Source: a virus. Taken from it: DNA of 30,797 bases. Positions 32-2,803 of the stretch are shown piece by piece. Each line of letters opens with the position of its first letter. The first letter of the stretch is position 1. The notes below the pieces were generated by a model, which searched no databases, was not told the origin of the DNA, and saw only the letters and a program-made list of their open reading frames with translations. The translations under genes and the position numbers were made by a program. The DNA is taken from the IMG/VR virus record IMGVR_UViG_3300017779_000080, positions 1-30,797 of that record; one strand, 5' to 3'.

Positions 32-73
32 CGGATAAAAACAATGAAGGGGACCTCGTTTGAGATCCCCTTC
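32..73 (-). terminator. Strong factor-independent terminator ending the late operon
   Basis: On the minus-strand RNA the stem is GAAGGGGAUCUC with GAGGUCCCCUUC, a 12-bp stem with one U-G pair and an AAAC loop (plus 46-73). It is followed by AUUGUUUUUAU (plus 45-35). The U-G pair becomes a C-A mismatch on the plus strand, and no U-run follows there, so the element serves minus-strand transcripts. It lies about 47 bases beyond the last stop codon. Confidence 0.8.
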
Positions 74-79
74 GGTTAC

Positions 80-120
80 AGGAACTTTTGGGTATGGTAC
101 GCCCAGTTATCTTTGTTCCT
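80..120 (-). repeat. Second inverted repeat just upstream of the terminator
   Basis: AGGAAC (80-85) pairs with GTTCCT (115-120), and inside it TGGG (89-92) pairs with CCCA (102-105), so the RNA from the end of the 250-aa gene to the terminator may fold into a two-part hairpin. It overlaps the stop codon region. It may protect the transcript's 3' end; no function is shown. Confidence 0.4.
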
Positions 121-872
121 TATAGTAATTTTTTAGTTCCTTTATAGCCATAATAAACTTCATCTAAACTGTCGTATATTTGTTTACCAAGCTTATTTTT
201 TTTAAGAATTTTACTTACAGGTTTAAAATATTTACCTTTTTTTAGAATTGCAGCAACAGGATCTCCACTAATTAAACTCGCTGCTGTATCAGCTGCTAAA
301 ACAGGAGGTAAAAATGATGAGACTGTATTAATCCCTTGACTTCTTGATAATATGCTTTTAGCCTGTTTACTATTAACACTTCCATCATCTTTATCAGCTA
401 ATTCTTTAAGAGCTTTAAGATCTTGTAATGAAGTTGGAAAATCACCTCCATTTTTATCTGTTTTTAAAACAGATCTAATTCCATCAAGAGGGTTTCCAGT
501 TAATGTTCTTAAATCTTCAAGAAATTCTTTACCACTGGGCCTTCGCTTTTTCCCTTCTACTTTAGTGATAGTATCTTTTGGAGGATTATTAGCATACCAT
601 TTTTTAATAGTCTCTGTGCTTGCTCCAGTTGGAAAACTAGATCCTTTAGATGTATCAACTAAAGCTGTTTCTCCAACTTTTTTATTTTTTGGTGCATTAA
701 CAATTACTTCATCTAAATTAGGTCTATGAATAGATCCTTCACCAAAGTGTTTTGCATATTCTGCATCAGACATTTTAGAGTCACTTTTAGTTGTATATTC
801 TAAATTATCTTCATCTTTAGGCTCTTCTTTTCTAAGAGGACTATTATTCATAAATTTATTTGAAAATGCCAT
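120..872 (-). CDS. Last gene of the operon, unknown function (250 aa)
   Basis: I do not recognise a family. The protein starts MAFSNKFMNNSPLRKEEPKD, with SPL at 11-13, followed by a charged, probably disordered stretch to about residue 110. A small Gly/Leu-rich region (about 115-150) and a hydrophobic segment SSFLPPVLAADTAASLISGD (about 185-204) come next. It ends in a Lys-rich helical part (KGKYFKPVSKILKKNK) and KLL. The hydrophobic segment followed by basic helices resembles membrane-active peptides, but that is only an impression. Its stop lies within a hairpin-forming region, and the operon terminator follows 47 bases later. Confidence 0.7.
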   Translation of the reverse strand: MAFSNKFMNNSPLRKEEPKDEDNLEYTTKSDSKMSDAEYAKHFGEGSIHRPNLDEVIVNAPKNKKVGETALVDTSKGSSFPTGASTETIKKWYANNPPKDTITKVEGKKRRPSGKEFLEDLRTLTGNPLDGIRSVLKTDKNGGDFPTSLQDLKALKELADKDDGSVNSKQAKSILSRSQGINTVSSFLPPVLAADTAASLISGDPVAAILKKGKYFKPVSKILKKNKLGKQIYDSLDEVYYGYKGTKKLL

Positions 873-877
873 AATAT

Positions 878-1018
878 TTATTTTTTACAGACACACTCCG
901 CTACTGGACAGTCTGCTACATTTATAACTAATTTTGAAACTAACCAGTTCCATTTACAACAACACTTACACCAGCAAGCTTGCATCCATAAACCTAGTTT
1001 TACTAATAATTTTCCCAT
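878..1018 (-). CDS. Cysteine-rich small protein (46 aa)
   Basis: This short open frame fills the 145-base gap between the 83-aa and 250-aa genes. It starts with ATG at 1018, five bases after the previous stop, and ends with TAA at 878-880, five bases before the next ATG. The protein begins MGKLLVKLGLWMQACWCKCC and continues CKWNWLVSKLVINVADCPVA, ending ECVCKK. It has eight Cys (15, 17, 19, 20, 21, 37, 42, 44) and four Trp. The N-terminal part is amphipathic or weakly hydrophobic. Cys pairs CxC, CCC and CxxxxCxC could bind metal (zinc or iron) or form disulphides. Function unknown. The exact fit between its neighbours supports it as a gene. Confidence 0.6.
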   Translation of the reverse strand: MGKLLVKLGLWMQACWCKCCCKWNWLVSKLVINVADCPVAECVCKK

Positions 1019-1023
1019 AATAT

Positions 1024-1275
1024 TTAATCTTTAATTGGACGTTCAGCGTCGTCTGTTTTTTTCATTTGAATTTTACCGTTTACACATTCAAATTCAGTTT
1101 TTTCTCTATTGTATTCTGCTAAATTATCTTCTGCGCTAATAGGTTTTTCATATTTTTCCATCTTACCATCAACTCTTCTTATCGACGTTTTAGATTTTCT
1201 AGACATATAGCTTGCTTTTTTCTTTTCCCAAGCCGCTGCGCATTTATCTTGTTTAAATGGTGATTTACTTTTCAT
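1024..1275 (-). CDS. Small basic protein of unknown function (83 aa)
   Basis: This is a Lys/Glu-rich protein starting MKSKSPFKQDKCAAAWEKKK, with SPF at 5-7 and two Cys residues (C12 and one in EFECVNGKI). It is largely helical in the first half and has a charged C-terminus. It starts inside the last codons of the 112-aa gene (11-base overlap) and its stop TAA lies five bases before the next small gene. No family recognised. Confidence 0.65.
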   Translation of the reverse strand: MKSKSPFKQDKCAAAWEKKKASYMSRKSKTSIRRVDGKMEKYEKPISAEDNLAEYNREKTEFECVNGKIQMKKTDDAERPIKD

Positions 1276-1603
1276 CTTTTAAGTGTGTTACGTAGTTACC
1301 TTTTTTATCTTTTTTAACTGTAGAGTAATCTTGAGCACTAAGCTGTGGATATTTTCCAGTTTGTTTTTTAACAGCGTCTTCTAATTCAAACTCCTCTACA
1401 TAGTCTCCTTTCTTATATTTATTAGAAACTCTTATAGTGTCTTTTACTTTTTCTCTAGGATCTTTTTCTTTTTTAACTGGACTATCTTCTGGTGCTGCTA
1501 ATATCTTAGCTTTTAATTCTTCAGGTAATCTATTTTGTTTTCCTACTAGTTTTTTATCTATAGGCGATTTTTCTATAAATCCTTTTTGAAATGGTGAACT
1601 CAT
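1265..1603 (-). CDS. Small Lys-rich protein with three SP-hydrophobic motifs (112 aa)
   Basis: I do not recognise a family. The protein is highly charged (Lys/Glu/Asp) and likely mostly disordered. It starts MSSPFQKGFIEKSPIDKKL, so SPF (3-5) and SPI (13-15) are close together, and SPV recurs at 41-43 before KKEKD. The second half has a KYKKGDYVEEFELEDAVKKQ segment (about residues 63-82) that may fold. The start overlaps the previous stop as ATGA, and the end overlaps the next gene by eleven bases. This tight coupling suggests the small proteins are made together. Confidence 0.7.
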   Translation of the reverse strand: MSSPFQKGFIEKSPIDKKLVGKQNRLPEELKAKILAAPEDSPVKKEKDPREKVKDTIRVSNKYKKGDYVEEFELEDAVKKQTGKYPQLSAQDYSTVKKDKKGNYVTHLKDEK

Positions 1604-1884
1604 GATTTTTTAGTTTTATTTTTTTGACAAAAGTTTCTAGCAGCTTCTACACTACCGAAACCCCATTTTTTTAGTGCCATTGCTTTTTTAGTTGGTTCGC
1701 CTTTAGCATCTTTCATTGCTCCAGCCATACCCGCAAATCTACAAGCAAATGACACTCTTCGCTTGTTAGTTCCTTTTGTAAGTCTCTTACCTAATTTCTT
1801 ACCGGTTTCAGATGTATACTCTGACCGCATTTTTCTATTTTGCTTTTCGTAAGCTTTTTCTTTTATTTCTACAGGTGATTTCAT
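1600..1884 (-). CDS. Small basic phage protein, DUF6321-like (94 aa)
   Basis: This is a very basic protein (many Lys and Arg) starting MKSPVEIKEK. The core RRVSFACRFAGMAGAMKDAK (about residues 42-61), then GEPTKKAMALKKWGF, follows a pattern I associate with small phage proteins of the DUF6321 type: a Cys-bearing aromatic strand, GPMKDxxGxPT and a Lys/Ala helix with Trp. The number is from memory and unverified. A second Cys lies in ARNFCQ. It starts one base after the peptidase stop, so it is co-transcribed and probably co-translated. Function unknown. It carries SPV at residues 3-5. Confidence 0.75.
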   Translation of the reverse strand: MKSPVEIKEKAYEKQNRKMRSEYTSETGKKLGKRLTKGTNKRRVSFACRFAGMAGAMKDAKGEPTKKAMALKKWGFGSVEAARNFCQKNKTKKS

Positions 1885-1885
1885 A

Positions 1886-2239
1886 TTAATATGTCCAAAT
1901 TACATTTTGTGATTTATCTTTATCGATGTCTACATGTATAAAAGATTTAGCGACACCTATTCTTTTAAAACCGGTCTTTGTTAATAAGCTTAATAGTTTA
2001 AACCTATCGCTAGATGTTGTGCATGATATATCAACAGCTAAACCTTTTACGTGTGAAGAATCTGCAACACCACCTATTTTTTTATTTCTAGCTTTTGTTC
2101 TATAACCAGAATTTACTCTAATAGGTTTACCATATTCTTTTCTTACCGCATCTAGCATATATATTATTTCTTTATTCATATGCCTACCGCTACCTGGTTC
2201 ATCAGGTGAATCAAACTCTTCTAGCTTAAAATATTTCAA
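1886..2239 (-). CDS. M15-family peptidase, putative endolysin (117 aa)
   Basis: This is a compact single-domain zinc peptidase of the M15 type (peptidase_M15_3-like), expected to cut peptidoglycan stem peptides. The motif set is present: INSGYRT equivalent VNSGYRTKARNKKIGG (residues 42-57), SSHVKGLAVDI with H63 and D70, and FIHVDID with H102, giving the zinc ligands H63, D70 and H102. It ends IWTY. It has no signal peptide, so release would depend on a holin, and the candidate holin lies immediately upstream with an ATGA overlap. The length is that of the catalytic domain alone, without a cell-wall-binding domain, which is common in phages of Gram-negative hosts. Confidence 0.85.
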   Translation of the reverse strand: MKYFKLEEFDSPDEPGSGRHMNKEIIYMLDAVRKEYGKPIRVNSGYRTKARNKKIGGVADSSHVKGLAVDISCTTSSDRFKLLSLLTKTGFKRIGVAKSFIHVDIDKDKSQNVIWTY

Positions 2240-2397
2240 TCTTCTTTTTCTTTTTTAATGTTAACCCATTTAGATATTGTATACCCTATAGTTATAAGTA
2301 ACAATAAAATTTTTAAACCGTCTTCTATTTGTGTAAAGGTTGTAACGCCTAGTGTACCTACGCTCATAGCGTATAGCTTCATATCTGATAAACTCAT
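2236..2397 (-). CDS. Putative holin, single membrane segment (53 aa)
   Basis: The best start is the ATG at 2397 (MSLSDMKLYAMSVGTLG), one base after the previous stop. A longer form from 2427 would overlap the previous gene and adds only a polar MIHQKNAENK. A membrane helix runs over about residues 22-44 (TQIEDGLKILLLLITIGYTI), followed by a basic end KKEKED. The layout of a short Asp/Lys N-terminus, one or two weak helices and a charged C-terminus is usual for small phage holins. The gene overlaps the peptidase start as ATGA, giving a holin-endolysin order. The holin role is inferred from topology and neighbour. Confidence 0.6.
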   Translation of the reverse strand: MSLSDMKLYAMSVGTLGVTTFTQIEDGLKILLLLITIGYTISKWVNIKKEKED

Positions 2398-2398
2398 T

Positions 2399-2803
2399 TT
2401 ATTCTCCGCATTTTTTTGATGGATCATCTACTCTTCTCCAGTCTTCTTTTTCAAACCAGTCTCTGAGTGTAGCTCCTTTTTTACGAGCGCCTTTAACATT
2501 TGTTTTAGACGATCTTTTATATTTACCTTTTGCGCCAGCGGATTTTTTAGAGTTTACTAGCTTTTCTCTTTGTTCTTTACTCATACTTCTTATTTTAGAA
2601 GCTGGTAAGCAAGTTTTAGTTGTACCACCACCTTTTTGTTTATTAAGTGGAGATCTTTTTTCTTCTGCATGTGCTAAACCGATTTTATTACCGTCACCTC
2701 TACCAGATACAGCAGCAGTTCTATTGCGCATTTTATTCCACGGCTTTGAGTGCATTACAGTTGCAGCACAATGCATCATTGGTGTTTTTTGTTTATAAGC
2801 CAT
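2399..2803 (-). CDS. Small basic phage protein with RDWFEKEDWRRVD motif (134 aa)
   Basis: This is a very basic protein with three visible parts. The N-terminal part is Met/His/Cys-bearing (MAYKQKTPMMHCAATVMHSK). The middle is Gly/Lys-rich with RSPLNKQKGGGTTKTCLP (about residues 50-67). The C-terminal part has KYKRSSKTNVKGARKKG and ends RDWFEKEDWRRVDDPSKKCG-E. I recognise the middle and end from small basic proteins of marine phages of unknown function (the family may have a DUF number that I cannot confirm). Its start shares bases with the previous stop. The next gene begins one base after its stop. The motif SPL lies at residues 51-53, after a processing-like Lys-Arg pair. Confidence 0.75.
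   Translation of the reverse strand: MAYKQKTPMMHCAATVMHSKPWNKMRNRTAAVSGRGDGNKIGLAHAEEKRSPLNKQKGGGTTKTCLPASKIRSMSKEQREKLVNSKKSAGAKGKYKRSSKTNVKGARKKGATLRDWFEKEDWRRVDDPSKKCGE

Follow-up and report, generated by a model that had tools for sequence, protein, structure and literature searches.

PMC12819732 describes disruptins as short phage peptides, amphipathic and cationic, that take the place of spanins and have effects like those of LL-37. According to the same description, the starting point for their discovery was that 13% of the tailed phages infecting Gram-negative hosts have no identifiable spanins, and their archetype is that of PhiKT (Holt et al. 2022, via PMC12819732). For North Sea flavophages, the lysis genes named in the relevant parts of PMC8776804 are endolysins, holins and some unimolecular spanins, and the table row for the podovirus Gundel in that paper gives only a peptidase as lysis gene.

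We found a gene for a 46-amino-acid microprotein in a 30,797-base virus record of IMG/VR (the window, meaning the whole stretch of DNA analyzed; Table 1). The microprotein resembles disruptins, as these are known from their description, in being short, cationic (net charge +5) and predicted to be helical, and in having lysis genes nearby. No lipobox or lipoprotein signal was detected by a simple pattern within this 30.8-kb record, which is a fragment. Unlike disruptins, the microprotein carries a set of four cysteines and additional strictly conserved residues, and its likeness to the PhiKT peptide is one of description. By analogy, it may work like a disruptin, which does not imply that it is one. 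With spanins, it would share the proposed step, which is the breach of the outer membrane, but it has neither the lipobox of o-spanins nor a clear transmembrane segment (maximum Kyte-Doolittle value of 1.44 over 19 residues, below the usual transmembrane mark). Small holins (phrog_920, phrog_3427) are neighbors of the microprotein in many loci; the microprotein itself, by contrast, matches no holin profile. Finally, as in small four-cysteine zinc proteins, a set of four potential ligands is conserved (77 of 77 distinct sequences), but profiles from Pfam, PHROGs and the PDB give its family no match worth keeping (best PDB E-value 1.6), and the family includes relatives without the cysteine set.

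Table 1. Features of the window around the microprotein gene
Feature	Position	Strand	Evidence and remarks
Hairpin of 12 bp, then T-rich stretch	46..73	-	After last operon gene; -26.4 kcal/mol for 35-110, z -3.56
250-aa neighbor, directly downstream	120..872	-	N-terminal NNSPL
46-aa microprotein	878..1018	-	Predicted helix 3-31, then Cys tail; universal Cys C21, C37, C42, C44
83-aa neighbor, directly upstream	1024..1275	-	N-terminal KSPF
112-aa neighbor	1265..1603	-	N-terminal SPF/KSP stretch
94-aa DUF6321 protein	1600..1884	-	PF19846 9.5e-10
M15 peptidase, endolysin-like	1886..2239	-	PF08291 3.4e-20; PHROGs phrog_894 endolysin 1.7e-28
Holin-like small membrane protein	2236..2427	-	Probable internal ATG start (MSLSDMK...); profile similarity only

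The microprotein gene reads from ATG to TAA (MGKLLVKLGLWMQACWCKCCCKWNWLVSKLVINVADCPVAECVCKK), and the gap to each flanking ORF is exactly five bases. The initial annotation had pointed to a complete frame with five-base spacers and to eight Cys and four Trp in 46 residues; the ORF coordinates and the translation confirm both, and we add that the frame lies on the minus strand. The suggestion that this is an overlooked real protein also stands. A close relative (L002/L014) has the same 46-aa frame at a pS of 0.62 and a pN of 0.066, which correspond to 15.5 synonymous differences on 25 sites and 7.5 non-synonymous differences on 113 sites between the window and L118, from the same contig as L002. 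Given that the close relative keeps the frame at this divergence, and that 77 distinct sequences contain it, the frame is more than a chance occurrence. The pooled pN/pS is 0.28 for 48 distinct sequences with the four-cysteine set (hereafter Cys-type sequences), with pairs that are non-independent. Loss of the frame or its cysteines in relatives, together with equally frequent synonymous and non-synonymous changes, had been named as evidence against the gene; instead, the frame and the key cysteines are kept and synonymous change dominates.

In 82 of the 88 loci with an upstream neighbor on the same strand, the spacing to this neighbor is -4 to 16 bases, as is the downstream spacing in 65 of 75 loci. 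We conclude that this ORF is a true, conserved gene. That it is instead a chance open frame is extremely improbable: the small size and the lack of a family match are the sole points for this explanation, whereas length, residues and purifying selection are kept across scores of contigs. A chance frame is ruled out by the pN/pS values and by the conservation in 77 distinct sequences.

Relatives were found using profile scans with growing alignments, which led to 14, then 62 and then 225 confirmed relatives in IMG/VR. Two of the three motifs used in the scan for these 225 contain none of the universal cysteines, and the neighboring DUF6321 gene served for finding relatives as well. The last scan comprises the best 80 of the 225 confirmed relatives, with counts that lean to closer relatives. 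One row (L188), whose gene is cut off at a contig end, was dropped. The 89 mapped loci consist of 82 Cys-type and seven long Cys-free loci (L003-L016, L139, L163-L187, L189-L236 and the window). Outside the Cys type are 12 of 89 sequences, namely the seven long Cys-free ones and five short ones, three of which have one Cys elsewhere.

Searches of existing collections yielded little. The window protein has no match in PHROGs, and 47 members have three stray matches there, of one member each, at 0.035 or worse. There was no match in Rfam, tblastn with five family members found zero matches in 50,697 phage records at E-values up to 10, and profile searches of the complete phage records MW202828, NC_055853, Calle_2 and Gundel_1 found nothing better than an E-value of 0.26. 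No description of the microprotein turned up in searches of open-licence PMC papers on disruptins, DUF6321, elemovirus or flavophage lysis, and cysteine-rich phage microproteins. The microprotein is a member of a large, unnamed family of tiny cationic, predicted helical peptides near lysis genes, and neither gene callers nor family libraries have picked up this family, which has hundreds of members.

Matches in bacterial genomes were limited to two contigs, both from metagenome-assembled genomes (MAGs). These contigs (L170, L171) are phage-like and were assigned to MAGs labelled Aliivibrio and Nitrosomonadaceae. The terminase and portal of the window point to phages of Bacteroidota, so these placements are probably binning errors, and we set the contigs aside when considering the host. 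The terminase and the portal (87 records each) come closest to those of an uncultured Manatee Spring podovirus (62.7% and 50.3%, respectively), followed by those of Flavobacterium, Cellulophaga, Tenacibaculum and Maribacter phages. Judging by these relatives, the host is probably a member of Bacteroidota.

Four cysteines, C21, C37, C42 and C44, are present in all 77 distinct Cys-type sequences, with the spacing C-x15-C-P-x3-C-x-C. The other residues that are invariant in this set are M1, G2, K3, V6, G9, W16, N24 and K29. The remaining cysteines vary: C17 occurs in 63 of the sequences, C20 in 14, C15 in 11 and C19 in 3. Correspondingly, nine sequences have four cysteines in total, 45 have five, 20 have six, two have seven and one, the window protein, has eight and is the cysteine-richest of the 77. 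We therefore rejected eight cysteines as a signature: only four are universal, and the extra ones in the window do not belong to it.

For the same reason, the pattern C-x-C-x-C-C-C, proposed in the initial annotation for searching related phages, is unsuitable, given that C15, C19 and C20 are unconserved. What survives of its emphasis on cysteine richness is the joint set of four, which would fit a metal site or disulphides. Of these two possibilities, linkage by disulphides is the less likely, because the total number of cysteines is odd in 47 of the 77 sequences. The conservation pattern suggests that the four universal cysteines form one unit, with binding of a metal (zinc) as the more likely role. 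A few members (L141, L161, L212, L048) have extra C-terminal residues with much Pro, Asn and Met, e.g., PDPVNMGG, NPQNMGG and PKPTNM.

These observations raise the alternative of a zinc microprotein with four cysteines that stays in the cytoplasm and targets a protein of the host or the phage late in infection, e.g., as a regulator. Its place near lysis genes would then reflect no more than a clustering of late accessory genes in this region. The universal cysteines, the odd totals that argue against fully paired disulphides, the lack of an evident signal peptide and the invariant W16, N24 and K29, which suggest a specific partner, are all consistent with this alternative. However, related forms do without the four-cysteine set, the tail is predicted to be loose and the microprotein matches no known zinc family, and we regard this alternative as rather doubtful.

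The related forms in question are of two kinds. Seven distinct sequences of 36-37 aa (e.g., MGKFLIKIGNKLVAFNEYLKGKWNSLLYKLMFKKEK) contain no cysteine and have the helix and the operon position in common with the Cys type. A short branch of 25-29 aa (e.g., MKKFIDKLQQAWNKLLYKLMFKKYK) has 125 confirmed relatives, the best 80 of which give 54 distinct sequences, one of them with a single Cys elsewhere. The pooled pN/pS of the short branch is 0.16 (51 cores, with non-independent pairs). The four-cysteine set is present in none of the seven long Cys-free sequences and in none of the 54 short ones (from the best 80 of 125), in contrast to 77 of 77 in the Cys type, so the four cysteines come and go as a set. 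Since relatives without them exist, the cysteines are best seen as an add-on and not as the core of the family. The gene for the short peptide (L239-L318; best 80 of 125 contigs) is conserved but too short for usual gene callers.

The first profile, which was made from Cys-type sequences only, finds the Cys-free forms weakly, with E-values of 0.0012 to 0.068. A profile built without any Cys-type sequence finds the Cys types at an E-value of 8e-6 among 16,228 ORFs, and a profile of the short branch alone reaches E-values of 2.3e-7 to 1.4e-5 for the long Cys-free forms and of 2e-4 for the Cys types among the same number of ORFs. Because profiles that lack Cys types recover them, the kinship of the Cys type and the shorter forms is sound, though the shortness of the sequences limits it. 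No two of the listings, with 80 Cys-type, 80 short and 7 long Cys-free entries, have a contig in common, which fits alternatives for one slot.

AlphaFold2, using 47 rows, predicts a single helix at residues 3-31 followed by a loose tail. The confidence is modest, with a mean pLDDT of 65 and a pTM of 0.39; pLDDT is about 75 in the first 20 residues and about 51 in the tail. The net charge is +3 to +9 in the 77 Cys-type sequences (mean +6.3) and +4 to +8 in the 51 short cores. Over residues 2-33, the mean hydropathy of the family is more amphipathic than in 98% of shuffles, with 191 of 10,000 reaching its moment. The window helix alone is weakly amphipathic, in that 10.4% of shuffles match it, which is not significant. 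Amphipathicity is likewise not significant in the part with homology to the short forms, either for the Cys type (2,177 of 20,000 shuffles) or for the long Cys-free forms (12,456 of 20,000), and the helical periodicity of conservation is not significant (moment reached by 2,337 of 10,000 shuffles).

The placement of the frame in a lysis region, as initially annotated, is borne out by an M15 endolysin-like gene that overlaps a holin-like gene by 4 bases (Table 1). The holin-like protein of the window has no direct match to any PHROGs holin family. We call it holin-like because its cluster is similar to a cluster of 49-aa proteins (hhalign 97.3%) that matches the PHROGs holin family phrog_920 at 4.7e-4. 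The strong hairpin listed in Table 1 is likely a terminator; it separates the late operon from the end of an opposed gene, which in relatives is a ribonucleotide reductase gene.

Across the family, an amidase or M15 endolysin gene is found within eight genes of the microprotein in 80 of the 89 mapped loci, and the other 9 have none at that distance. Within the same distance, there is a small holin-like gene in 50 loci and a gene encoding a transmembrane segment plus a coiled coil in 37. These two genes occur together in 0 of 89 loci, and neither occurs in 2. Given that they are never found together, they look like two alternative lysis cassettes. Judged by eye, the coiled-coil gene, which accompanies 36 of the 82 Cys-type loci, could be i-spanin-like; its cassette also includes secreted-looking proteins, one of them faintly thioredoxin-like. 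A protein of 51-72 aa with a DCGC motif is encoded directly beside the microprotein in 50 of the 82 Cys-type loci. Its Pfam scan was empty, and many of these loci also carry GroEL-like genes.

The microprotein could also be an antiholin or other holin partner that sets the timing of lysis by binding the small holin and not by disrupting the membrane. The holin-like gene directly adjoins it in 9 of 89 loci. In the short branch, moreover, the order holin-like gene, microprotein, M15 endolysin occurs in 11 of 80 loci (best 80 of 125), and 9 of these 11 have 4-base overlaps on both sides, including that with the holin-like gene. The 11 are not 11 independent events, since five share one identical peptide and some are near copies. 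Against such a partnership, the holin-like and coiled-coil genes exclude each other throughout the mapped loci, and the partner would have to change in the 36 of 82 Cys-type loci with the coiled-coil gene instead. We consider this role very unlikely.

An N-terminal SP[FLVIMY] stretch (SPF, KSPL, NSPL) is common to unrelated small late proteins: of the 201 distinct proteins encoded in 36 loci, 63 have it, compared to 3.6 expected from shuffles. In the window, it is present in the 250-aa, 83-aa, 112-aa and DUF6321 proteins (Table 1) and in the ORF at 2803-2979, and is missing from the microprotein. The stretch might serve as a tag for targeting to the virion or for processing.

With such neighbors, the microprotein might be a packaged or virion-associated small protein from a late lysine-rich module that is carried with the DNA, with a helix that binds DNA or a virion protein. 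The neighbors are small basic proteins that share the SP[FLVIMY] stretch, one neighboring family matches a stretch of the PHROGs "minor head protein and DNA pilot" family phrog_220 at 2.7e-15, and structural genes precede the operon. However, the microprotein, which lacks the SP stretch, is aromatic and hydrophobic and not merely lysine-rich, and the shortest branch lies between holin-like and endolysin genes in the aforementioned 11 of 80 loci. A virion-associated role is therefore unlikely in our view.

The family is cationic, predicted to be helical and located near lysis genes, and action on the host membrane late in infection is probable on these grounds. Our preferred reading, which we hold tentatively and at somewhat less than an even chance, is that the microprotein is a cationic helical peptide that is made late, is active on membranes as part of the lysis programme and acts like a disruptin or a holin helper. 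Its N-terminal two thirds would fold into a single helix that carries lysines and has a hydrophobic face, lying on or disrupting the host membrane at the end of infection. The microprotein would thus be a third lysis factor, either disruptin-like on the outer membrane or a helper of the holin. C21 in the helix and the tail motif C37-P-x3-C42-x-C44 would make up one joint site, more likely for zinc than for disulphides, that may stabilize or gate the helix.

Several observations count against this membrane-active lysis role. The microprotein gene is found beside either lysis cassette. The distance to the closest holin or endolysin gene is at least three genes in most of the mapped Cys loci; three genes is the commonest distance (33 of 89 loci), and 1 of 89 has no such gene. 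In the short branch, none of the M15, holin-like and coiled-coil genes occurs within five genes in 19 of 80 loci (best 80 of 125). Many small basic proteins without an evident lysis role are encoded in the same stretch. In addition, the strict conservation of W16, N24 and K29 exceeds the needs of a generic membrane peptide.

A more specific proposal, which we put forward as speculation and think quite unlikely, is a new class of lysis microproteins. The minimal form would be a W-N helix peptide of 25 residues, encoded between holin and endolysin, and one branch would have gained additional N-terminal residues and a clamp of four cysteines. Either metal or the passage from the reducing cytoplasm to the oxidizing outside would then switch the peptide on only at cell opening. 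The forms of the family with and without the cysteine clamp make a natural comparison available.

How Bacteroidota phages get through the outer membrane is, to our knowledge, poorly understood. With its 25-46 codons and its place beside holin and endolysin genes, the conserved gene described here would be a small candidate for this step.
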